Assembly: GCF_019798055.1 (NCBI RefSeq)
Contig: NZ_JAHOPH010000004.1
Span: 124,001 to 188,000 of the forward strand
Reading direction: 5' to 3'
Origin: Salsipaludibacter albus
Lineage (GTDB): Bacteria; Actinomycetota; Nitriliruptoria; Nitriliruptorales; Nitriliruptoraceae
Length of the DNA stretch: 64,000 nt
This document shows positions 44,978-61,228 of this stretch, one piece after another; the first letter of the stretch is position 1, and each line of letters begins with the position of its first letter. The notes below the pieces were generated by a model that saw only the letters and a program-made list of their open reading frames with translations, was not told where the DNA came from and did no database searches. A program made the translations under genes and the position numbers.

Positions 44978-47900
44978 CTATGGTCGGCAGCCGTTGCCGT
45001 TGCCCTTGCCCCTGTCCTGGCAGTTGCGGTTGCCCGGACGGTCCAGGTCCATGCCGACCAGCACGGCGTCGTGGTCCGACGCCCGGTACTCGTCCGGCGC
45101 GTAGATGGCGTCCTGGCCGTCGGACTTGAACGACATGTCGTAGTCGATCAAGTCCGGCTCGTCGGTGTTGGCGTGCCACACCGCGGCACCGGTGACGTCC
45201 TCGGCCAGGTCGGCGTTGGCCAACGCGTGGTCGAGGTAGCCCAGCTGCCCGTCGAAGACGTAGGAGTAGGCGTACTCACCCTGGTACTCGGCGATCAGGT
45301 CGACGTAGCCGCCGTCCACGATCGCGTCGATCGGGTCCTCCTTGTCGTAGGAGTTGAGGTCGCCCGTGACCAGGATGTTGCCCGGATGCACCTTGGTCGG
45401 GTTGCTGTCGAGCCAGTCGACGATGGCCTCGGCCGCCGCGGTGCGGACGCCGTCGCAGTTGCCACCCTCGGTGTCGGGCAGGTCGGGGTCACCGACGTCA
45501 CTGCACGACGAGCCCTTGGACTTCAGGTGGTTGACCGCCACCAGGACGTCCGCCCCGGTGCCGTGCTCGACGAAGGTCTGGGCCAGCACCGGCCGGTTCT
45601 TGGAGTCGAGGAACCGCGGGTCCACGGACTGGTCCAGGATCGCGTACTCACCCTTGGGATCGACGCTGTCGGTCTTGTAGATCAGCCCGACCTTGATCGC
45701 GTCGGTGCCCAGGTAGCCGGTCGAGATCGCGGCATAGGTGCCCTCCCCGACCTCGGCGTTGAGGGCCGCGACCAGTGTCTCGACCGCGGTCGGGCTGTTC
45801 TCGATCTCCATCAGCCCGACGACGTCGGCGTCCAGCTCGGCCAGTGCGGCCACGATCTTGGCCTCCTGGCGCTCGAACTCCAGTTCCGTGTCGGCGCCTC
45901 GGCACTCCTGGTTCATGTCCGGCCCGCACGCGTTGTCGAGCGGGTCCCCGGTCGGGTAGTCCAGCGTCGGGAAGTAGTTCAGGACGTTGAACGCGGCCAC
46001 CTGGAGCCGGCCACCGACGTCGGGCACGTCCGGCCGCGGGTTCGCGACCGTGAAGTCGGCCGGCCCGGTCGGCTGGATGCGGTACAGCCCGAAGCTCTCG
46101 TCGATCACCCCCACGGTGTTGGTGACCAGGTCACCACCACGGAAGCGGTTGTCGAGCGTGAACGGGTCACCGTTGGGGTGGCGGGTGACCTGCGGGTTCT
46201 GGGTGGACAGCCCGTCGTCGAGCGTGATGCGGGCCGTGTCGTTGTAGGTCTCCAGCGCCACTGCCTCGGCCGAACCGGGCTCGTACACCGCGGTGGGCTG
46301 GAACTGGCGCTCGGTCCCGAGCACGATCTCGCCGAAGCGGTCGTAGTTGAAGTACTCGAGGATCGCGAGGTCCTGGGGGAACGTGACGTACATGCCCTCG
46401 TAGCGCTCGAAGCCCGTGAAGTCGTCGAGGCCGGCGAGGTCGGTGGGCACCAGCACGTCGGTCGCTGCCGGCAGGTCGACCCCGCTGGCGCACACGACCA
46501 CGGAGTCGGCGTAGACCTGGGTCTGGCTCGCGCCGCCCGAGGTCTCGTACTCGGCGGCTTCGCCCACGACGTGCACGCGGTCACCCACGTTGACGTCGAC
46601 GAGCGGACTGCCCTCGTAGACGAACACGCCGTCGGAGGTGGCCGCGTCACCGTCGCCGGCGTCCTGCACGTGGAAGCCGCCCAGGTTGCCGAAGCCCTCG
46701 TCGTCGTACTGGAAGTCACCGACGACGACACCCTCGATGGCGACCGTCTCGCCCTCGACCGGAGTGGTGGCCCCGTCGCCCTGGACACTGCCGATGGTCA
46801 CGGTCGGGTCGCCGCACTCGCCACCGGGGCCGCCGGTGTCCTCGACCCACGCGTTGGGTGCGCCGGGGGTGTTGTAGGCCTCGCCCGGGGCGGGGTCGCC
46901 GTCCTCGATGCCGGCCAGGTCGAAGTCGTTGCGGACCCAGTCGTCCGCGGTGTCGGTGTCGGCGCCGTCGGGGATGCGCGATGCACCGCCGGGCGCGAAG
47001 GTGTTGGCGTCCCCGTCGAACAGCCCGTCGAGCGTGGTCTGGGCCCAGGTCTGGTCGCCGCTGTCCCCGTCGTCCACCGCGACCGAGTCGACCACGGTGC
47101 CGAGGTCGCCGGTCACGTCGGTCTCGCCGGTCCAGTCCCGCACGAGCAGCAGCGACAGGGTGCCGTTCTGCAGCGCCGGGCTGGGCGAGTCGAGCAGCGC
47201 GAAACCGGCGGCGTCGGTCGTGCCCACCGCGTAGTCGCCGATCACGGTGCCGAAGTTTGACGAGCCCTCGTCGCCCTCGACCTGCAGGACGGTGTAGGCG
47301 GACAGGTCGGTGTCGGCCGGCCCGTACAGCTCGACGTACTCGACGTCGGTGCCGGTGGTGCTGGCGGAGAACTCGTTGATGACGACGGAGCCTCCTCCGC
47401 CCCCACCTTCGCAGTCGACGGCGTGGCTGCCGAGGCCGTCGAAGGTGTCGTTGCCGAACTCGCTCCACTCCTGCGACGGGTCGAAGGCGTCGTCGACCAC
47501 CGTGTCGCCGGTGCAGACGTCGGCGTTGCGACGAAGGGTGTTGTTCGCGGTGGACGGCGTGCCCCAGCTGGTGCCGGGGTCGAGGCCGAGCGTGCCGAAC
47601 GAGTCCACCACGGTGTCGTCGGTGGTCCGCAGCGCCAGGAAGTCGTCACCGTTCCACAGGCTGGCGTTGGTCGTCTGGTCGGCGTAGGCCGCGAGGTCCT
47701 CGTCGGCGAACACGTAGGCATCACCGGCAGCCAGGGATCCCGACAGCGGGAACGTGGCCGTGGAGGTGCCGCCGTTGAACGAGACGAACAACTCGTAGCC
47801 CGACAGGTCGACTGCAGCGTCGGTGCCGTTGTAGAACTCCACGGCCTTGTTGAAGCTCGATCCCTCGACGTACTCGCTGATGATCAGGTCGGTCGGTGCG

Positions 47901-47998
47901 GCGGCTCGCGCTGCCGTTGCCGGGACCATGACCGCCGCGGCCAGCAGTGCGGCCAGCAACGACACCCCCCAGCGCCTCGTCGTCAACGTCGTCTCCAC
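44978..47998 (-). CDS. Secreted ExeM/NucH-type extracellular nuclease
   Basis: The 1006-residue protein has a signal peptide ([20 protein letters not shown]), two lamin-tail-like domains (about 35-170 and 205-340; [30 protein letters not shown]), an OB-like middle region, and a C-terminal endonuclease/exonuclease/phosphatase domain from about 610 with [31 protein letters not shown] and the final [12 protein letters not shown]. This order is that of ExeM/NucH nucleases that degrade extracellular DNA. GTG 47998 with AAGGGG upstream is the only start that keeps a normal signal peptide. It lies between the two topoisomerase genes on the opposite strand. Confidence 0.92.
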
Positions 47999-48269
47999 GT
48001 GTGTCCCCTTCGACTGTCTGGTCGTGTTCAGAGTGGACGGGACCACGAACCTCGCACCCCCGCGACGGCCGAGTGACCGACCGGATGCGAAGGCTACTGA
48101 GACAACACCCACGGAGGCATGGTCGGACGGCGGCCCGTCCGGTGAACGCTCACGGGCATGTCGGCGCCCGTCGCGCCCACCCTCCCCGACATCGTCGGAG
48201 GCGGTTCGTATCCTCGCGACAGACGTCGCCCGCCGTCCCGTCCCCCGCACCGCCGAAGGCCCGCCGAAC

Positions 48270-50827: not shown

Positions 50828-51118
50828 ATGATGGCCACCGTGGTCACCTCCGACAGCACGCCCTCCCCCCTGGTCGCCGACCGTCGTGACGACGACCGCG
50901 TGTGGGGCCGGGTGTGGTGGTTCTGCCCCGACCGAGGCTTCGGCTGGGTCCTGGACGACCGCGACCACGCCTGGTTCACGACCTGGAGCGACCTCCCGGG
51001 CCAGGGCTTCCGCTGGCTCGAGGACGGCGTGGCCGTGTCCTTCCGGACCGACCGCGACTGCCACGGCCCGGTCGCCCGTGACGTCGTCGTCGAGTCCGCA
51101 CGCCGGATGGCCGGCTAG
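50828..51118 (+). CDS. Divergent cold-shock-domain-like protein
   Basis: The 96-residue product aligns by eye with the cold-shock domain: GRVWWFCPDRGFGWVLDD matches GxVKWFNxxKGFGFI (RNP1), then HAWFTTWSDLPGQGFRWLED matches VFVHxSDIxGxGFRxLxE, and CHGPVARDVVVES matches KGPQAxNV. The RNP2 VFVHF is replaced by AWFTT, and there is a 25-residue N-terminal leader. It may bind single-stranded nucleic acid; whether it still does is open. AAGG precedes ATG 50828 (or 50831). Its stop shares CTAG with the converging polymerase gene. Confidence 0.75.
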   Translation: MMATVVTSDSTPSPLVADRRDDDRVWGRVWWFCPDRGFGWVLDDRDHAWFTTWSDLPGQGFRWLEDGVAVSFRTDRDCHGPVARDVVVESARRMAG

Positions 51119-52029
51119 GACGTCCCCAACGCCGGGAGTTGCTGCTCCAGCGTCAGCGTCGGGGCGAACAGGTCTCCCTGCTCGTCGATCCGGAGGAGCA
51201 CCTCGTCGGCGGTGAAGGCGAGCACGGTGTCGCGTCGGGCGGCGGTCTCGACCTCGTCACGCGTCACCGGCGTCGAGACCGTCGGGGTGTCGCGGGCGCG
51301 CAGCGAGTAGACCGCGACGGTCGTCTTGAGCGGCACGTTCTGGCTCCAGTCGACGAACACCTTCCCCGTGCGGGCGCTGCGGTCCATACTGGTCAGGACG
51401 AGGTCGGGGTGGACCCGCTCCAGCAGGCGTCCGACGGACCGGGCGAACTCCTTGGTCTCGTCATAGGTCGTGTCGTCCGAGTTCACCGGCACGTACACCT
51501 GCAGGCCCTTGGAGCCCGAGGTCTTGGCGAACGCCTCCAGGCCCAGCCGGTCGAAGACCTCGAAGAGCCAGCCCGCGACCACGCACGACTCGACGATGCC
51601 GGCGGGTGGTCCGGGGTCGAGGTCGAACACCACCATCGTCGGCCGGTGGGGATCGGGTGCCCGGCCCATCGGCACGTGCAGCTCGAGCGCCGCGAGGTTC
51701 GCGGCCCACACCAGCGCCGCGCGCTCGCGCAGGTCGCAGTGCGCCACGACCTTGTCGCGGCCGATCCGCCCCAGGTCGACGGTGGGCAGCCAGTCCGGAT
51801 GGTGCGGCGGACACCGCTTCTCGAAGAAGTGGTCGCCCTCGACGCCGTCGGGGTAGCGCACCATCGTCAGTGGCCGGTCACGCAGGTGGGGCAGCATCAC
51901 GTCGGCGACCCGCGTGTAGTAGTCGATCACGGCGGCCTTGGTGGTGCCCGTGGACGGGTACAGGACCTTGTCGAGGTTGGACAGGCGCAGTCGACGGTCG
52001 TCGACCGTGACAGTGACCCGTTCAGCCAC
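51115..52029 (-). CDS. ligD: Stand-alone LigD-type NHEJ polymerase/primase (PolDom)
   Basis: The 304-residue protein is the polymerase domain of bacterial LigD without ligase or phosphoesterase modules: LSNLDKVLYPSTGTTKAAVIDYY near 15-37, FFEKRCPPHHPDW, metal-binding VVFDLDPGPP (D-x-D) near 134-143, KTSGSKGLQVYVP and the third Asp in VFVDWSQN. It adds ribonucleotides and fills gaps during end joining with Ku. GTG 52029 overlaps the alpha/beta hydrolase stop by 8 bp. The ligase must be encoded elsewhere. Confidence 0.92.
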   Translation of the reverse strand: MAERVTVTVDDRRLRLSNLDKVLYPSTGTTKAAVIDYYTRVADVMLPHLRDRPLTMVRYPDGVEGDHFFEKRCPPHHPDWLPTVDLGRIGRDKVVAHCDLRERAALVWAANLAALELHVPMGRAPDPHRPTMVVFDLDPGPPAGIVESCVVAGWLFEVFDRLGLEAFAKTSGSKGLQVYVPVNSDDTTYDETKEFARSVGRLLERVHPDLVLTSMDRSARTGKVFVDWSQNVPLKTTVAVYSLRARDTPTVSTPVTRDEVETAARRDTVLAFTADEVLLRIDEQGDLFAPTLTLEQQLPALGTS

Positions 52030-52837
52030 GCGGTCGATCCGGATCGAGCGGTGCCAGGAGGTGGTCGCGGACCAGTTCTGCGGTCACCGCCGGGGCTTCC
52101 CAGGCCGGGAAGTGGGCGACTCCCTGGATCGCCTGCCCGACGGCGTTGGGCAACTCCTCGCGGTACCGCCGGGCGGCGTGGTGGATCGCGGGGTGGTCGT
52201 GGGTCCCGACGCCCACCAGGGTCGGCGCCTCGATGGTCGCGAGCCGATCGCGCAGGGGCGGGTCGATCTCCCGTGGCTCACCACCGTCCCAGGCGCCCTG
52301 CTCGCGTGCGGCCGCAGCCATCAGCAGGCCCATCACGCCCGACGCCAGCGGTTGGGGCAGGTCGGTCAGCGTGCGATCCCGTCCGACCACGAACAACTCC
52401 GCGTGGATCTCGGCCGTGAGGTCGAAATCGCCCTCCTGGCACGCGCGATCGGCCTCCTGGAGCCGTCCGAAGTCGTCCGGGAAGTCATCCCAGGAACCAC
52501 CCCCAGGCAGGGCCGGGCCCAGCAGGACCATCGCGTCCACCGCCGTCGGCGTGGTCGCCGCGACGTCCGCGACGATCCGGCCCCCGTTCGAGCACCCGAC
52601 CCATCCGGCGTGGTCGAACCCGGCCTCCTGGAGGACGTCCAGTGCGTCCTCGTGGTCGAAGTAGTCGCCCACCGGGTTGGGCGACTCGCCCTGCCCGCGC
52701 GGGTCCATCGTGATCACGGTGAAGTCGCGTCCCAGATCGGTGGCGACCCGGTCGAACTGCCGGCGCGAGCCGATCCCGGCCGGGACGAGCACGACCGGTG
52801 GTCCATCACCGACCACGTCCCAGGCGACGTCGGTCAT
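52022..52837 (-). CDS. Alpha/beta hydrolase embedded in the NHEJ operon
   Basis: The 271-residue protein has PVVLVPAGIGSRRQFDRVA, then DPRGQGESPNP, the nucleophile elbow GWVGCSNGGRIV (Gly-x-Ser-x-Gly is replaced by Gly-Cys-Ser-Asn-Gly, Ser retained), APTLVGVGTHDHPAIH (acid) and GVAHFPAWE (His). The Ser-Asp-His triad therefore looks intact. The substrate is unknown. Its ATG overlaps the ku stop (ATGA) and its stop overlaps the polymerase start, so it is translationally locked between the two NHEJ genes. Confidence 0.88.
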   Translation of the reverse strand: MTDVAWDVVGDGPPVVLVPAGIGSRRQFDRVATDLGRDFTVITMDPRGQGESPNPVGDYFDHEDALDVLQEAGFDHAGWVGCSNGGRIVADVAATTPTAVDAMVLLGPALPGGGSWDDFPDDFGRLQEADRACQEGDFDLTAEIHAELFVVGRDRTLTDLPQPLASGVMGLLMAAAAREQGAWDGGEPREIDPPLRDRLATIEAPTLVGVGTHDHPAIHHAARRYREELPNAVGQAIQGVAHFPAWEAPAVTAELVRDHLLAPLDPDRPRG

Positions 52838-53652
52838 GCCGACTTCTCGGCGGCGCCCTTGGCGTCCCCCTTGGCATCCTTGGCGGCTTGCAGGCTCTGC
52901 TCGAGCGCGGCCATCAGGTCGACGACCTCGCCACCCTCCTCGACCTCGGGCGGGGTCGCGATCTCCTGGCCCTCGGCCTTCGCCTCGATCAGGGCCAGGA
53001 CCTTCTCGCGGTAGGTGTCGGTGTAGCGCTCGGGCTCCCAGTCGCTGGTCATCGACTCGATCAGCTGCTCGGCCATCTTGATCTCGGCGTCGGACACGTC
53101 GAGCTCGTCGCGGTCCGGCAGGTCCAGGCGTCCCGGCTTGATGATCTCGTCGTCGTAGGTCAGCGTGGACACGGCCAACGCGTCGTCCAGCGGCCGGATC
53201 ACGACCAGGTACTCCTTGCTGCGCATCACGAACCGCGCAACCGCCGCCTTGCCGGACTCGGTCATGGCCTCGTGCAGGAGCAGGTAGGGCTTGGCGGCGG
53301 TCTCCTGGGGCACCAGGTAGTAGGACGAGTCGTAGTAGATGGGGTCGATGTCCGCCAGGTCCACGAAGTCCGCGATGTCGATGGTCCGGGACTTCTTGGG
53401 GTCCAGCGACTTCAACTCGTCGGGCTCGATCACGATGTACTGGTCGGGCGCGACCTCGTAGCCCTTGACGATCTCGTCGTTGGCGACCTCCTCCTCGTCG
53501 ATCTCGGCCACCTTGCGGTAGCGGATGCGCGAGCTGTCGGACCGGCGGATCTGCTTGAACGACACGTTCTTGGAATCCACCGCGGTGACCAGCTTGATCG
53601 GGATGTTGACCAGCCCGAAGCTGATCGAGCCGGTCCAGATGGAGCGTGGCAT
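52834..53652 (-). CDS. ku: Non-homologous end-joining protein Ku
   Basis: The 272-residue protein starts MPRSIWTGSISFGLVNIPIK, the conserved Ku N-terminus, and continues through DPIYYDSSYYLVPQE, EYLVVIRPLDDALAVSTLTY and the C-terminal minimal region ending in an Ala/Lys-rich tail. It forms the homodimeric ring that binds DNA ends and recruits LigD-type enzymes. ATG 53652 is chosen over an earlier in-frame start at 53679 because conserved sequence begins there. First gene of a three-gene overlapping operon. Confidence 0.95.
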   Translation of the reverse strand: MPRSIWTGSISFGLVNIPIKLVTAVDSKNVSFKQIRRSDSSRIRYRKVAEIDEEEVANDEIVKGYEVAPDQYIVIEPDELKSLDPKKSRTIDIADFVDLADIDPIYYDSSYYLVPQETAAKPYLLLHEAMTESGKAAVARFVMRSKEYLVVIRPLDDALAVSTLTYDDEIIKPGRLDLPDRDELDVSDAEIKMAEQLIESMTSDWEPERYTDTYREKVLALIEAKAEGQEIATPPEVEEGGEVVDLMAALEQSLQAAKDAKGDAKGAAEKSA

Positions 53653-53730
53653 GACGACCTCCCGGACATGTCCGACCACGATAGTGCCGCATCACGCCGC
53701 GCCGCACCCGTCGTCGGCGGGGCCCGGTGC

Positions 53731-55692
53731 TCAGGCGGCCACGCGTCGCGGCGGCGCAGGCGGGACGGTCACCAGGTCCGGCACGCAGTGGCCCAGGGCT
53801 GCCAGGACGACCTCGGTCGTGGCATCCACCGTGTCGTGGGGCCCGATCGACACCTGCACGACCCGGTCGTGGGGCACGCCCAGGCGGCCCAGCGAACCCA
53901 CCAGGTCGTCCAGGACCCGGGCGCCGTGCCCCACCATCCGCGACCGCTGGTCGCCCGTCACCTGCTCGATCCGACTGTGGGGGTCGGCGCGCCGGGCCAG
54001 CCGTGCCTCCACGACCGCGGTTGGCGGGCGCAGCACCACGACCACGTCGGGGCGCAGCCACCGCCGGTCGCGCATCCATGCCTCCAGCAGACCGCGGTGG
54101 TCGCCGACCAGTCCCAGCGACCACGTGGCCTGGAGCGTGCCCTCGTCGAGCACGGCGTCCACACCCCCGGCCCGGGCCCGGCCCAGGAGTCGCTGGGCCA
54201 CCACCCAGGCGACCGTGCGGCGGGCCACGGCACGCGGGTCGCCCTGTCCCGACGTCGCCACGGCCACCGTCGCCACCGCGGTCGGGCCCGGGTGCGTGAC
54301 CGCCTCCGACACCACCGCGCCGACCTTGCGGGCGAGCCGGGCGGGCGTCGGGGTGCCTGCGCCGGTCCCGGCCGTCGTCACCGTGCCGACCCGCATGGCG
54401 GTCGCGACGGCCGCAGCCAGGGTGGACTTGCCCGATCCGGGCAGGCCGAGGAACTCCACGACCACGGGTGGTCGCTGCGTCGTGCGGCCGTGCCGCTCCG
54501 GGGACCGCCCGGTCGTGGCGGCCCAGACCTCCCGGTGGCGACTCCGGATGACGTCCGGCGACCACTCCCCGAGGGCGGCACGGATGGACGGGCGAGGCGC
54601 ACGCGGAGCGTCGGCGGCCAGCAGCTCCGCGACCGCCGCCACCGCGGCGTCGAGGTCGTCGTGGGCCACGACACGTCCCTCGGCCCCGAGGGCACGCAGC
54701 TCCGCCACGCCGTCGACCGGGTGGGCGACGAACGGCGTGCCGGCGGCTGCCGCCTGCAGGAGGACCTGTGGGAGGCCCTCCGCTCGGCTGAGCAGCACCA
54801 CGACGTCGGCGGCCAGCAGCAGGTCGTCGACCGGCGACACCCACCCGGGCATCGCGACGTCGTCGGCGAGCCCGAGCTCGTCGACACGCGCCGACAGCTC
54901 CCGGGCCTGCGGCCCCTCCCCCGCGATGACCAGCTGCGGATCCGACGACGTCGTCGCCTGCAGTCGCACCAGCAGCTCCGGCAGGGCGAGCACGCGCTTG
55001 CGGGCGTCGAGACTCCCCAGGGAGAGCACCACCGGTCGTCGGGGGTCCAAGCCCAGCCGTCGTGCCACGTCGGCTCGCGCCGCCGCGGATCGGCGGGACG
55101 CGTCCGGCAGGGGCGCACCGGAACGCACGACGTGCAGGCGCGCAGGGTCGGCACCGATCCGCCGGTACTTCTCGGCCAGGTCGGCGCCCACCACGACCCA
55201 GCCGGCGGTCAACGGGACCAGCGCCGTCTCGGCGAGACGCTGCAGTCCGCCCTCCAGGCGTCCGTACCCGTCCCCGAAGGTGGCCATCGACAGGGAGTGG
55301 ACGACCGGTGGGCCTCCACGCAGTCGCACGGCGACACGGCCGAGCACGCCGGCCTTGGACTGGTGGGTGTACACGACGTCGCACGCGACCAGGCCGGGCA
55401 GCCGCAGCAGCCAGCGCAGGCAACGCGCGTCCCGGACGGGGTCGACGGCGCGCACCAGGTCGGGCGCCACGACCACCCGGGCGGGTGCGAGCTGGTGGCG
55501 GGCCAGGTCGAGGTCGGACTCGGCGCCGACCACGACGACGTGGTCGACCTCGGGGAGGGCCGCGACCACGTCACGGACGCGGCGCTCGGAGCCCCCGCGC
55601 AGGTAGCGCGTGCACAGGTGCAGGGCACGCGGGCGACGGTGGGTCGCGCCCGGCCCGGCCGGTGGCGACCCGCCGGGCGTGACCGGGGCCAC
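53731..55692 (-). CDS. Fusion of a family 4 glycosyltransferase and a P-loop kinase-like domain
   Basis: Of 653 residues, about 20-385 form a GT-B family 4 glycosyltransferase (LHLCTRYLRGGSERRVRDV; VVLSLGSLDARKRV; LVIAGEGPQAREL; VVVLLSRAEGLPQVLLQAAAAG). Residues about 410-653 form a P-loop nucleotide kinase-like domain with Walker A GLPGSGKST (416-424), a DEG segment and an Arg-rich lid. The GT would add a sugar during repeat-unit assembly; the kinase substrate is unknown. GTG 55692 lies 1 bp after the stop of the initiating transferase gene, implying coupling. Confidence 0.85.
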   Translation of the reverse strand: MAPVTPGGSPPAGPGATHRRPRALHLCTRYLRGGSERRVRDVVAALPEVDHVVVVGAESDLDLARHQLAPARVVVAPDLVRAVDPVRDARCLRWLLRLPGLVACDVVYTHQSKAGVLGRVAVRLRGGPPVVHSLSMATFGDGYGRLEGGLQRLAETALVPLTAGWVVVGADLAEKYRRIGADPARLHVVRSGAPLPDASRRSAAARADVARRLGLDPRRPVVLSLGSLDARKRVLALPELLVRLQATTSSDPQLVIAGEGPQARELSARVDELGLADDVAMPGWVSPVDDLLLAADVVVLLSRAEGLPQVLLQAAAAGTPFVAHPVDGVAELRALGAEGRVVAHDDLDAAVAAVAELLAADAPRAPRPSIRAALGEWSPDVIRSRHREVWAATTGRSPERHGRTTQRPPVVVEFLGLPGSGKSTLAAAVATAMRVGTVTTAGTGAGTPTPARLARKVGAVVSEAVTHPGPTAVATVAVATSGQGDPRAVARRTVAWVVAQRLLGRARAGGVDAVLDEGTLQATWSLGLVGDHRGLLEAWMRDRRWLRPDVVVVLRPPTAVVEARLARRADPHSRIEQVTGDQRSRMVGHGARVLDDLVGSLGRLGVPHDRVVQVSIGPHDTVDATTEVVLAALGHCVPDLVTVPPAPPRRVAA

Positions 55693-55693
55693 G

Positions 55694-56413
55694 TCAGTGC
55701 GCCCCGTTGCGTCGGACGGTGACCATCTGTCCGGCCGTCCGGGCCATGATGGCCAGGTCGCCCGCCAGGCTGCGCCCCCGGACGTAGCGAACGTCGAGGG
55801 CGACCCGCGTGTCGTAGTCGATGTCACTGCGTCCCGACACCTGCCACAGGCCGGTCAGTCCGGGGCGGTCGGCGAACACGACGTCGGCCCACTGGCCGTA
55901 GCGCTCGAGCTCGTCGGTCACGATCGGGCGGGGACCGACCAGGCTCATGTCGCCCCTGAGCACGTTCCAGAACTGCGGGAGCTCGTCCAGGCTCGTGCGT
56001 CGCAGCCAGCGCCCGATCCGCGTGACACGCGGGTCGGCCGGCAGCTTGTAGTCGGCGTCGAACTGCCGTCGCAGGCCGTCGTCGGCAGCGAGCAGCTCGG
56101 CCAGGATGCGCTCGGCGTCGACCACCATGGTGCGGAACTTCAGACAGACGAACGAGGTGCCCGCCCGGCCAACCCGCTCGTGGCGGAACAGCACCGGTCC
56201 CGGCGAGGTCGTCATCACGACGAGCGCCACGAGCAGGAACACCGGTGCCCCGAGCACCAGGGCGACCGACGCCAGGACGACGTCCATCAGTCGCTTCGCG
56301 ACGTGCCCGACGCGCCCCGCCGCGGGGCGGGCCACCTCCCGCCCGGCCACGACGTCCGCCGGCGTGATGATCGGCACCGCTCCCGGCCCCGAGATCTCGA
56401 GTCCCGCACTCAT
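55694..56413 (-). CDS. Undecaprenyl-phosphate sugar-phosphate transferase (initiating, short form)
   Basis: The 239-residue protein has one N-terminal membrane hairpin ([20 protein letters not shown]) and the bacterial sugar-transferase catalytic core: [50 protein letters not shown] and [15 protein letters not shown]. It loads the first sugar phosphate onto undecaprenyl phosphate at the inner leaflet, starting polysaccharide synthesis. It is the ExoY-like short form rather than the five-helix WbaP type. Two perfect GGGACA-N2-TGTCCC palindromes lie 103 and 143 bp upstream of ATG 56413. Confidence 0.93.
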
Positions 56414-56436
56414 GTCGCCCCCTCGTCGAACGGACA

Positions 56437-56569
56437 GGGCGGCGTGTCCCTGCGTTTCCCCTGCAGTCACCCGCCCGTCACCTCCGAGACTGCTGGGCGG
56501 CGTGTCGCACCTGAAGGGACAGGTGTCCCCGGCGGCCGGCTCCTCGGGCACAAAGGGGACACTTGTCCC
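56437..56569. promoter_or_regulatory. Two perfect GGGACA-N2-TGTCCC palindromes (plus one degenerate) before the exopolysaccharide operon
   Basis: GGGACAGGTGTCCC (56516-56529) and GGGACACTTGTCCC (56556-56569) are spaced 40 bp, about four helical turns. A weaker copy, GGGCGGCGTGTCCC (9 of 12), is at 56437-56450. The 242-bp gap between the sulfurylase fusion and the sugar transferase has no gene. Confidence 0.6.
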
Positions 56570-56655
56570 GAACGGGTTCGTCCGCGTCGTCCGCGACGGG
56601 ACACGGCGATGCCGGGACCGACCCCGGCGGTCGATCCCGACGTGCTCGGGTGGCG

Positions 56656-58893
56656 TCAGTCGCGGAACACCGGGCGCCCGCTGGCGACCTCCGCCAGCAG
56701 GACGTCCTGGACCGTGCTGCGCATGAACCAGTCGGGCAGGCGCTCCCCCCGGCGGAAGGCGCTGCGGACGTGGGTGCCGGAGATGTGCGACAGTTCCTGC
56801 CCACGGGAGGTCTCGTGCGCACCGGTCGCCGGGTTGTAGCCCACCGTGTCGAAGAACTCGGGGGCGATGCCGAGGTCGCCGAGGCGATCGAACATCTCCC
56901 GGTTGGCCTCCGGCCCGTAGAAGTCCCGCACACCGGTGTGGTCCCGGCCGATGATGAAGTGGCTGCACCCCATGTTCTTGCGGCACAGGGCCGTGAAGAC
57001 GGCCTCACGGGGGCCGGCGTAGCGCGACCACGTGAACAGGGAACCCAGCACGACCTTGCGCGCCGGGTAGCGACCGAACGCCATCAGGGTCTGGTAGCTC
57101 AGCAGGACCGGCTCGGGCAGGAAGTCCCCCGGGTTCTCGGGACTCGCCACCGGGCTGATGTAGATGCCGTCTGCCCCCGTCCGCTCCAGCGCACGCAACT
57201 GGATCGACTCGTGTGCGCGGTGCGCGGGATTGCGCGTGTGGAACCCGATGACCCGTGACCACCCCATCCGGTCGAAGATGAACCGGGTCTGCGTGGGGGT
57301 GAGCAGGTAGGGCCGCTGGGTCGACGCGAGTGGCTCGACCAGCGTCACGGCGCCGGCCAGGAAGTGGTTGCCGAGCGCCATGGTCCGTTCGACGCCGGGG
57401 TGGCGCGGGCTGGCCGTGCCGAACCAGGCCTCGGTCAGGGCGGGGAGGTCGAAGGTGAACCGCTCGGTCACGTCGAGCAGCGCCCGGACCACCCCGTCGG
57501 CGTCGACCAGGGCGACCCGCTCCCCGACCCGGACGGCTCCGGGGCCGGTGGCGTGGCGCGGATCCACGGCCAGCAGGAGCGGCATGGTCCACACCGTGCC
57601 GTCGGGCAACCGACAGTCGGCCAGCACCGACCCGAGGGTCTCGCGGTCCATGAAGCCGGTCAGCGGCGAGTAGGTCCCCTCGGCCAACTGCTCGCAGTCC
57701 ATCACGTCGCGGTCGGTGACCGTGATCGTGCGCAGCCCGTCGATCCCGGCGCGGTCGTCGTCGGTGGCACGGCGTTGGACGAGCCGGCCACCGTGGGGCT
57801 CGGTCAGCAACGAGATCTGCCCCGGGGACTGCCCCACCGCGAGCTCCTCGTCGCCCCGCTCGAAGACCCGGACCATCTTCTGCACCATCAGGGCACACCG
57901 GACGGGGTAGCGGCCGATCGCCGTCTCGGCGGCGAGCACCAGGCCGTCGGCACCGTCCGCGAGCGTCGTGTGGATGTCGTTGACCTCGGCCCGGGTGGGC
58001 GACGGCTGGGAGACCATCGACTCCAGCAGGTTGGTGGCCACGTAGACCTTGCGGCCCATCGCCCGGGCCCGCGCGATGATCCGCTTCTGGGTCTGGGGCA
58101 GCATCTCGATGGCCACCTGTCGGGACAGGTCCCCCCGGTCGATCAACAGCGCGTCCGCCTCGGCCGCGATGTCCTCGAGGTTGTGCAGGCCGGCGATGGT
58201 CTCGATCTTGGCGATGACGTGGGCGTCCTGTCCCGCGAGCTCACGCAGCTCGCGGACGTCGGCGCCACGCCGCGCGAACGACAGGGCCACGTGGGCGATC
58301 CCCAGGGCATGCCCGATCTCCAGCGCCTCGCGATCCTTGTCGGTCAGCGAGGGGATGTCGACCTCGCGTTCGACGCTGACCCCCTTGTTCTGGCCGACCA
58401 GGCCCCCCTGCAGGACCCGCATCCGGACCCCGTCGGCGTCGGTGTCCAGCACCTGGACCAGCGCAGAGTTGAAGTCGATGCTGAGGAAGTCCCCCGGGAC
58501 CAGTTCGTGGGCGACGTCACGGGGGTAGAGGTTGAAGTTCCAGTCGTCGCCGGGCACCGGGAGGTGGTGCACGCGGACGACCGTGTTGTCGTGGAGCTCG
58601 ATCGAGCCGTTGATCAGGTTGCCGGTGCGGACCTGGGCGCCCTCGGTGTCCAGGCAGATCGGCACATCCGTGGCGTCACGGATCGTGGCGATGATCTGGC
58701 GTAGGTCCCGCACCTTCGTGTGGCTGAGGTTGACCCGGAACAGCGACGCCCCGCACTGGGCCAGGCGACGGATCGTCCCGGCCTGCATCGAGGCCGGCCC
58801 GAGCGTGCACAGCAGCTCGGGGGACGCCTGCCGTGCTCCGGGCCTCGGGGCGACCGGGGCGACCGTCGGGACGGGGAGTTCGTCGATGCTCAC
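56656..58893 (-). CDS. Fusion of a pyruvate kinase-like domain and ATP sulfurylase
   Basis: The 745-residue protein joins two enzymes. Residues about 25-355 resemble pyruvate kinase A and B domains: LLCTLGPAS, RVNLSHTK, DTEGAQVRTG, NKGVSVE, IAKIET (catalytic Lys), IDRGDLS (usually ARGDLG), ATNLLESM (usually ATQMLESM) and AAETAIGRYP. The pyruvate kinase C-terminal effector domain is missing. Residues about 362-745 are ATP sulfurylase: PHGGRLVQR, GFHTRNPAHRAHES (usually QTRNPxHRAHE), GRDHTG (usually GRDHAG) and ISGTHVRSAFRRGE. ATP sulfurylase makes APS from ATP and sulfate. The neighbouring sulfotransferase starts 37 bp upstream, so this supplies activated sulfate for sulfation. ATG 58893. Confidence 0.92.
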   Translation of the reverse strand: MSIDELPVPTVAPVAPRPGARQASPELLCTLGPASMQAGTIRRLAQCGASLFRVNLSHTKVRDLRQIIATIRDATDVPICLDTEGAQVRTGNLINGSIELHDNTVVRVHHLPVPGDDWNFNLYPRDVAHELVPGDFLSIDFNSALVQVLDTDADGVRMRVLQGGLVGQNKGVSVEREVDIPSLTDKDREALEIGHALGIAHVALSFARRGADVRELRELAGQDAHVIAKIETIAGLHNLEDIAAEADALLIDRGDLSRQVAIEMLPQTQKRIIARARAMGRKVYVATNLLESMVSQPSPTRAEVNDIHTTLADGADGLVLAAETAIGRYPVRCALMVQKMVRVFERGDEELAVGQSPGQISLLTEPHGGRLVQRRATDDDRAGIDGLRTITVTDRDVMDCEQLAEGTYSPLTGFMDRETLGSVLADCRLPDGTVWTMPLLLAVDPRHATGPGAVRVGERVALVDADGVVRALLDVTERFTFDLPALTEAWFGTASPRHPGVERTMALGNHFLAGAVTLVEPLASTQRPYLLTPTQTRFIFDRMGWSRVIGFHTRNPAHRAHESIQLRALERTGADGIYISPVASPENPGDFLPEPVLLSYQTLMAFGRYPARKVVLGSLFTWSRYAGPREAVFTALCRKNMGCSHFIIGRDHTGVRDFYGPEANREMFDRLGDLGIAPEFFDTVGYNPATGAHETSRGQELSHISGTHVRSAFRRGERLPDWFMRSTVQDVLLAEVASGRPVFRD

Positions 58894-58929
58894 GATGGTT
58901 CCTCCGGACGTCCGGGTGGGTCGAGGTCG

Positions 58930-59892
58930 TCAGTGCCGAACATTGCCGACCGGCTGCGTTGGGGGCGTGGACAGGTCCCATGCGACGCCGAGCTCGACGG
59001 CGGCAGCGCGGACCTCGTCGGGCACGGCGTAGCGGTGGCGTTGCATCTCCGGGAGCAACTCCGGCAGGAGTCGCGCCAGGTCCGCGGGATCGAACCGACG
59101 CCACTTGTCCATGCGTGACGGGTCGACCTTGCGATCGGCCGCGGTGGCCATCTCGTCGGTCATCTCCAGGCCGCAGTGCTGGGTGACCCGCTCGAGGTGT
59201 GCGATCGGGTCCTGCACGAAGTCCTCGTAGCGCAGGCAGAGCAGCTGGTCGTCGGGGAACGCCGCCAGTGCCTCGGCTGCCAGTCGCGACGGGATCGCCC
59301 ACTGGCGGGCGATCACCGTCAGCTGGTCGTGGTGGCGCAGGTCGTCCTGGATCCCCCGGTAGCGCGGTCCCCACACCGACAGGTACTCCGAGCCGGAGAC
59401 GTGTTTGTCCCACAACTGACGGGCGTACTTGCGGGCGTAGTGGTGCACCTGGGTCGGTGGGGTCTCGCCCAGGCGGCGCCACGCACCACGCGCCGTCACC
59501 GGCTTCTGCCACTTGCGCTCCACCGAGCTCAGGAAGGCGAAGGGGTCACGCACGATGGCGAGGTAGGTGGCGTCGGGGAAGATCTCCCGCACGTACGGCA
59601 CCCGCAGGATGTTCGCCGGGGTCTTCTCGACCACCGTCGACCCGCCGTGCTCCTCCTGGAAGCGCAGGAACCGACGACGCACGTAGCGCTGCACCCGGGG
59701 CGTCGCGTCGCCGGCGTCGTACTCGTCGTGGCGTCGCCCCGGGTCGGCGACCTGCCACAGCGTGCGTGGCTCGTACCAGCCGACGAGGTCGGGGTGTCGC
59801 GACAGGCTCCGTTGGAGGATGCTGGTGCCCGACCTGGTGTTGCCCAGGATGATCACGGGCGTTCGAAGTCCTGCGGCCACTCCCACCCCCAT
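58930..59892 (-). CDS. Sulfotransferase family protein
   Basis: The 320-residue protein has the PAPS 5'-phosphosulfate loop PVIILGNTRSGTSILQRSL (residues 12-30) and the 3'-phosphate site YLAIVRDPFAFLSSVERKW near 126-144. It would transfer sulfate from PAPS to a hydroxyl, most simply of the polysaccharide made by this locus. ATG 59892 is chosen because conserved sequence starts ten residues later; the frame is open to 60003. A weak GGGACA-type site is at 59974-59987. It lies 37 bp upstream of the sulfurylase fusion. Confidence 0.9.
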   Translation of the reverse strand: MGVGVAAGLRTPVIILGNTRSGTSILQRSLSRHPDLVGWYEPRTLWQVADPGRRHDEYDAGDATPRVQRYVRRRFLRFQEEHGGSTVVEKTPANILRVPYVREIFPDATYLAIVRDPFAFLSSVERKWQKPVTARGAWRRLGETPPTQVHHYARKYARQLWDKHVSGSEYLSVWGPRYRGIQDDLRHHDQLTVIARQWAIPSRLAAEALAAFPDDQLLCLRYEDFVQDPIAHLERVTQHCGLEMTDEMATAADRKVDPSRMDKWRRFDPADLARLLPELLPEMQRHRYAVPDEVRAAAVELGVAWDLSTPPTQPVGNVRH

Positions 59893-60055
59893 GGCGTGCG
59901 TGCTGGTTCCCGTGCGGCGATGTCGTTCCCCCACCACGAGGACGAGGGAACTCCCCGAGGCCGGTTGCGGGTAGGGACATTCGCCCCCTCTCGTCGTTGC
60001 CACCGGGGTCTAGTCTCCCGGCAGTTGCTGGGAACGGGCATGGGGGTGGCTGGCC

Positions 60056-61228
60056 ATGGCGACGACAACGACGACGGGCACGGCCGGCGACCTCGTCGAC
60101 CCGGTCCGCAGCGTGCTGGTCGGCCTCGACCAGGCCGGCATCCAGTGGTGCCACTGGAAGAGCAACGAGGCCCTGGCGGCGTCTGCGGCCGGGATCAACG
60201 ACCTGGACCTGCTGGTCCGTCGTGACCAGGTCGGGACGTGCCGGGCGATGCTCCACGGGCGGGGCTTCGTGCAGGCCCTGCCCCCGGCGTCCCGACGCAT
60301 CCCGGGCGTGCTCGACTACCACGGGGACGACCCGCGGCTGGAGCGTCCCGTCCACGTGCACCTGCACACCATGCTGGTGCTGGGCGACGACATGACGAAG
60401 AACCACCGGCTCCCGATCGAGGTCGAGTACCTGGCGGCCTGTCGCCGCGAGGGACCGTGGCTCCTCCCCGCACCCCAGTTCGAGCTGGTCGTCTTCGTCC
60501 TGCGGATGGTCGTCAAGCACTTCGCGTGGGACGCGATCCTCATGCTGCAGGCCGACCTGGCGCCCTCCGAGGAACGCGAGTTCGACCAGCTCGTGGCCGC
60601 GGCCGACCCCGGGGCCTGCGAGGCCCTGGTCGACGACCTGCTGCCGGAGGTCGGCAGCGCGCTGTGGACCCGCTGCCGTGATGCCCTGGCCACGACGACC
60701 TCGGGACGCGAGCGCGTGCGCCTGGAACGGGAGCTGGTCCGGGCACTGCGCCCGTTGGCACGCCGCGGCCCGGTGGTCGACACCACCCTGAAGGCCGGGC
60801 GCCGGATCGTGGCCCTCGGGCGACGCACCCTGGCGCCCAGGGACCGACGCAAGACGCTCCCCGACGGCGGGTTGGTGGTGGCGGTCGTCGGTGCCGGCCC
60901 GGAGGACCGGGCACGGCTGGTGGCGGACCTGGACGCCTGGCTCCGTCGTGACCTCGTCGTCCACGTGGTGACGTTCGCCGACGACCCCGGCCGCGCCGCA
61001 CGCCGCGTACGCGCCGTGGCCGGGCGGGGTGGCATCGCGCTCGTGGCAGACCATCCCGCGACGCGCGGCCGGCGGCCGACGGGGATCCCGGCACCGGACC
61101 TCGAGCTCGACCTGGACCGACCGGTCGACGACGCGGCCGAGGGGCCCGGACCGGTGATCGGGGTCGCCGGGACGAACCCCGCCGACCGACTCATGGCCGC
61201 CCGGACCGGTCTGTGGCGTCGCGCCTGA
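60056..61228 (+). CDS. Nucleotidyltransferase-like protein fused to a degenerate P-loop domain
   Basis: Residues about 20-200 resemble the nucleotidyltransferase-like fold found in polysaccharide loci, with GIQWCHWKSNEAL and GINDLDLLVRR (an Asp-x-Asp pair). Residues about 271-390 resemble a P-loop kinase, but the expected GADGSGKST reads GAGPEDRAR, so it cannot bind nucleotide in the usual way. The gene faces the opposite way to its neighbours, converging on the flippase-kinase gene, whose kinase domain is intact. Function is unknown; a scaffold or regulatory role is possible. Confidence 0.75.
   Translation: MATTTTTGTAGDLVDPVRSVLVGLDQAGIQWCHWKSNEALAASAAGINDLDLLVRRDQVGTCRAMLHGRGFVQALPPASRRIPGVLDYHGDDPRLERPVHVHLHTMLVLGDDMTKNHRLPIEVEYLAACRREGPWLLPAPQFELVVFVLRMVVKHFAWDAILMLQADLAPSEEREFDQLVAAADPGACEALVDDLLPEVGSALWTRCRDALATTTSGRERVRLERELVRALRPLARRGPVVDTTLKAGRRIVALGRRTLAPRDRRKTLPDGGLVVAVVGAGPEDRARLVADLDAWLRRDLVVHVVTFADDPGRAARRVRAVAGRGGIALVADHPATRGRRPTGIPAPDLELDLDRPVDDAAEGPGPVIGVAGTNPADRLMAARTGLWRRA

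Follow-up and report, generated by a model that had tools for sequence, protein, structure and literature searches.

NHEJ in bacteria is seen as a minimal system of Ku and a LigD-type enzyme. By family, Ku binds broken ends, which are processed and sealed by the LigD-type primase-polymerase domain (PolDom) and an ATP-dependent ligase encoded separately. In Streptomyces, the kuA-polK and ligC-polR loci colocalize a standalone PolDom gene with ku and keep the ligase gene separate (PMC5124664). The 64,000-nucleotide stretch of Salsipaludibacter albus DNA analysed here (the window) contains a split locus of the kuA-polK type (Table 1), with a standalone PolDom gene beside ku and a separate ligase gene; unlike in Streptomyces, ku and PolDom are separated by an alpha/beta hydrolase gene. 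The locus resembles the Ku + LigD NHEJ of B. subtilis and M. tuberculosis in its homologs of Ku, the LigD-type PolDom and the ligase, and differs from it in that the LigD activities are split over genes, a PE domain is found on a different contig and the hydrolase gene is extra. That hydrolases stand outside known bacterial NHEJ agrees with the original prediction as far as this was checked: a limited search of the literature, covering few subscription papers, found no hydrolase named as a bacterial NHEJ part, and the word "hydrolase" is absent from PMC7719229. This silence is at most a weak sign of novelty.

The three genes lie on the minus strand where they had been predicted, hydrolase in the middle, and each scores above its family threshold. 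Ku matches PF02735 (E 9.7e-50) and, as a bacterial Ku by the curated cut-off, TIGR02772 (E 1.5e-96, 322.8 bits vs 150); it is the single ku detected in its genome. PolDom matches PF21686 (E 5.6e-84, 282.1 bits vs 27.4) and TIGR02778 (269.7 bits vs 214.7), carries the motifs VVFDLDPG and FVDWSQN, and is a standalone LigD polymerase domain with no ligase or PE domain matched. The ligase is a separate gene (PF01068+PF04679, L205:9010-9951) about 17 kb upstream of the ku-PolDom locus in the window genome, whereas it is near ku-PolDom in the two relatives that share the hydrolase. Between ku and this ligase (53731-61228, on to about L205:6371) runs a series of genes resembling a sulfated-polysaccharide cluster, with a glycosyltransferase bearing a C-terminal P-loop domain, a sugar transferase, a sulfotransferase and polysaccharide-type membrane proteins. 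The frame at 56656-58893 is an unusual fusion, in which a pyruvate-kinase barrel (PF00224) is followed by PUA_2 and ATP-sulfurylase (PF01747) in one open frame.

Table 1. Coordinates of the ku locus and its immediate flanks within the window
Feature	Position	Strand	Details
ku, NHEJ DNA-end-binding protein	53652-52834	minus	ATG..TGA, 272 aa, C-terminal VVDLMAALEQSL stretch
Alpha/beta hydrolase	52837-52022	minus	ATG..TGA, 271 aa, triad S83-D214-H242
Standalone LigD-type primase-polymerase domain (PolDom)	52029-51115	minus	GTG..TAG, 304 aa
ATGA overlap, ku stop/hydrolase start	52834-52837	minus	4 nt
Overlap, hydrolase end/PolDom GTG start	52022-52029	minus	8 nt
Gap 5' of ku	53653-53730	minus	78 nt; candidate promoter of the ku-hydrolase-PolDom unit, judged from sequence
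Small cold-shock-domain (CSD) protein	50828-51118	plus	PF00313 E 2.7e-6; convergent with PolDom

The hydrolase is a real gene under purifying selection inside the ku-PolDom unit. The PF00561 score (E 1.1e-21, 78.1 bits vs a cut-off of 25.8), the fold of a confident AlphaFold model (pLDDT 93.3, pTM 0.92) and the Ser-Asp-His triad together identify an alpha/beta hydrolase. The triad had been predicted to be kept and is indeed intact, its serine (GCSNGG), aspartate (GTHDHP) and histidine (GVAHFP) unchanged across 22 aligned homologs. By the Nei-Gojobori method, which is rough at this GC, dN/dS between the window and its sister species is 0.23 for the hydrolase, 0.13 for ku, 0.24 for PolDom, 0.27 for the ligase and 0.19 for gyrA2; the hydrolase value marks a working protein and no chance ORF. 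The modeled fold is predicted to be ordinary and esterase-like, without an added domain. Its nearest solved neighbors are esterases and lactonases, headed by the Est816 esterase/AHL lactonase (5egn), which is the best match in both sequence (E 1.1e-9) and fold (Foldseek 1.2e-16). The fold and triad are shared with Est816 and related alpha/beta hydrolases, but the window protein is only 22% identical to Est816 and, unlike it, is encoded after ku. PcaD 3-oxoadipate enol-lactonase (TIGR02427) is among the best-scoring named families, yet the hydrolase is not a member, scoring 67 bits where the cut-off is 255.85. A structure search returned 1594 PDB matches at E<=0.001, and similarity this broad says little about the substrate. 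A scan of genome contigs with the hydrolase gave a single match, archaeal and irrelevant. PADLOC anti-phage defence profiles (E<=0.001) gave zero matches for ku, hydrolase or PolDom, and a defence-system reading of the trio was dropped.

The original prediction held that ku, hydrolase and PolDom overlap by 3 and 8 bp, are translationally locked and are thereby made in fixed stoichiometry. The 8-nt overlap is as predicted, whereas the ku/hydrolase overlap is 4 nt rather than 3. The ku/hydrolase spacing is kept, at -4 in the window, -4 with the same four nucleotides in the sister species (G001), and -1 nt (TGATG) in G017, a member of another genus in the same family. From these spacings, the hydrolase would be translated by reinitiation from the ku message, and its translation is likely coupled to that of ku by termination-reinitiation. 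The hydrolase/PolDom spacing is not conserved (-8, +32 and +4 nt, respectively), and the +32 of the sister species exceeds the distance of approximately 20 nt that all but abolished reinitiation in the reporters tested (PMC10666635). A lock is thus likely at the ku end and not conserved at the PolDom end, and a fixed ratio does not follow from so variable a spacing; even among E. coli pairs at -8 to +10 nt, only 30% code for one complex, vs 7% of distant pairs (PMC10666635). Moreover, a 4-nt overlap is a possible reading for two other gene pairs in the window, and -4 and -1 nt are the most frequent spacings in prokaryotes (PMC10666635), so the ku/hydrolase overlap is not unusual.

Upstream of ku, a CTATCGTGG stretch lies about 30 nt before the ATG, within the 78-nt gap, and is present in the sister species too. 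A sigma-70 scan found no consensus promoter, and no terminator was found either. The perfect 12-nt palindrome CGGACATGTCCG (53663-53674) was considered as an operator and rejected, as it was not found ahead of ku in those relatives that were checked.

The trio recurs in two related genomes. In the sister species, the gene order is the same, with ku 91%, PolDom 82% and hydrolase 75% identical to the window, and the ligase about 3 kb from ku. In G017, ku is followed directly by a hydrolase gene, within which the contig breaks off; the start of PolDom lies near the end of a different contig. Within the hydrolase gene, the two contigs have exactly 55 nt in common, and the joined frame encodes a 270-aa hydrolase (Abhydrolase_1, 80.9 bits); the assembly overlap is strong but indirect evidence for the join, which would give the order ligase - EthD - ku - hydrolase - PolDom. 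The EthD-domain gene (L062:1254-1562) lies between ligase and ku and overlaps the ku start. With the trio in both genomes, the hydrolase is not absent from the operon in all relatives, the outcome that would have told against the original prediction. The hydrolases of the two genera are just 32-40% identical.

Across the family, the arrangement is ligase-ku-PolDom near gyrA2, with CSD in most members; CSD-gyrA2 lies near NHEJ genes in several relatives, and the CSD gene is a flank of the conserved locus, outside the operon. A CTAG palindrome (51115-51118) holds the overlapping stop codons of PolDom and the convergent CSD gene. The CSD protein (50828-51118 vs L061:8685-8987) evolves fast between the sister species, at 44% identity and dN/dS of about 0.96, vs 75-91% identity for its neighbors. 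A large protein (44978-48046), which has an endonuclease/exonuclease/phosphatase domain as well as a Lamin Tail Domain, is probably a secreted nuclease or phosphatase; the sister species has a similar large gene at the same place before gyrA2.

The slot between ku and PolDom holds the hydrolase in the window genome (G000), the sister species and G017, and is empty in five relatives (G007, G012, G023, G028 and G033). In G002, it contains an opposite-strand GTPase gene (MMR_HSR1, L063:9095-9676), which by eye we take to be EngB-like, so the slot tolerates unrelated insertions. A remnant of the hydrolase was sought there and none was found. A class-wide search detected ku in 41 of 66 genomes. Across the class and the wider phylum, in a non-exhaustive survey biased towards loci where ku is near the query, ku and PolDom are co-directional in 32 of 104 ku loci, 26 of them separated by at most about 0.4 kb; among the 32, a hydrolase occurs only in the window's genus, the second genus having been found separately. 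A profile made from the hydrolase and its homologs found a same-strand member of the subfamily immediately next to ku in G000, G001 and G017 only. One other hydrolase is adjacent to ku (G404), convergent with it and of a different type by sequence, and was set aside; the remaining hydrolases near ku lie further away, at about chance frequency by rough estimate. The closest outside homologs (G051 and G053, 40-45% identical) sit beside genes that, reading their sequences, we take to be uppS, recO and era; both genomes carry ku elsewhere. In the phylum sample, 14 of the 41 genomes with a hydrolase homolog at E<=1e-14 have no ku match at 1e-40, although one of these (G049) contains a ku fragment. 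Rather than co-occurring with ku and PolDom across lineages, as an NHEJ component would, the hydrolase accompanies them in three genomes of two genera.

Taken as a whole, these data make it probable that the locus is a split NHEJ operon containing a coupled, selected enzyme of the esterase/lactonase type, carried as a passenger on ku expression. The starting state would have been a split NHEJ locus like kuA-polK of Streptomyces, with ligase, ku and PolDom as separate genes, in which Ku would act at broken ends and PolDom and the separate ATP-dependent ligase would process and seal them, roles assigned here from the families. A metabolic hydrolase gene would then have been inserted between ku and PolDom. 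Made by termination-reinitiation off the ku message, its product is most likely a stand-alone enzyme that cleaves some small ester or lactone, gains ku's expression and takes no part in end joining; the co-transcription of the three genes, the substrate and the lack of an NHEJ role are what we infer. Most relatives have no hydrolase at the slot, which makes a co-expressed passenger likelier than a repair part, and the window genome encodes 32 Abhydrolase_1 proteins (less than 1% of genes, a rough estimate), which makes such a gene a common passenger. Against this, two genera have kept this order despite the low identity of their hydrolases and the ku overlap is retained, when a pure passenger might be lost; overlapping pairs are also enriched for complex subunits, as in the E. 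coli figures above (PMC10666635).

A less likely reading is that linkage was selected for timing, the hydrolase being a co-regulated stress or stationary-phase enzyme (for detoxification, or the breakdown of a lactone or signal) that is produced when Ku is and acts outside NHEJ. The conserved coupling with ku is consistent with this, as are the entry of the EthD gene into the same operon in G017 and fold neighbors that include the AHL-degrading esterase and the stress-signalling RsbQ (1wom); the breadth of the fold similarity, however, is too great for these neighbors to indicate a substrate.

A dedicated accessory role in NHEJ in this lineage, in which the hydrolase would bind Ku or PolDom, work at DNA ends or act on a repair protein's acyl/ester modification, is improbable. 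Its presence in the same slot in two genera, the retained ku coupling overlap, selection resembling that on PolDom and the enrichment of overlapping pairs for complex subunits (PMC10666635) all argue for such a role. Nonetheless, five relatives that have this ku-PolDom locus lack the hydrolase in the slot, as do the other co-directional loci surveyed, homologs occur away from ku or in genomes without a ku match, and the esterase-like model, with no added domain, gives no pointer to DNA binding.

A possible repeated recruitment would also favour an accessory, and the phylogenies bear on this. The ku clade of nine rows has support 99. In the concatenated gyrA2-ku-PolDom-ligase tree, g1 is joined with g5+g2 at 80/91, and a g1+g5 clade on gyrA2+ku+PolDom+ligase is neither demonstrated nor rejected (p 0.205). 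In the hydrolase trees, which have long branches, the window enzyme groups with those of G051 and G053, from another family (100/97), and the G017 enzyme is placed elsewhere. Forcing the ku-linked hydrolases together gives an AU p of 0.067 with the sister species included and 0.013 without it, so that a one-clade origin is neither demonstrated nor firmly rejected by the trees. From these sequences, one ancient gain followed by a loss in G002 is possible, as are two recruitments into the same slot. Should the hydrolase trees be correct, one subfamily has been taken into this slot on two occasions, a history that would be surprising in a passenger. We nevertheless give little credence to the fuller version of the accessory reading, in which the ku|PolDom slot recruited a serine hydrolase of one subfamily, perhaps in two independent events, and the enzyme serves NHEJ as a lineage-specific accessory produced in step with Ku.

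That the gene is an artefact, whether a mis-called ORF, an assembly chimera or a degraded gene, might be suggested by its position in a 1133-aa open frame on a GC-rich strand, but this has next to no probability given the intact triad, the purifying selection, the confident model and the same order in an independent assembly, the sister-species locus already refuting it.

The locus is a small, lineage-specific variant of a known one. As a probable passenger in a split NHEJ operon, the hydrolase is a useful example of how an unrelated enzyme gene can enter a repair operon, and it illustrates why shared function cannot be read from a short overlap alone. The ku|PolDom slot, whether empty, with a GTPase gene or with the hydrolase, amounts to a small natural experiment on operon insertion, in which two independent recruitments, if true, would be more interesting than one gain. 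Set against the minimal NHEJ of bacteria, an extra gene that is under selection and coupled to ku would make a concrete candidate for an accessory.
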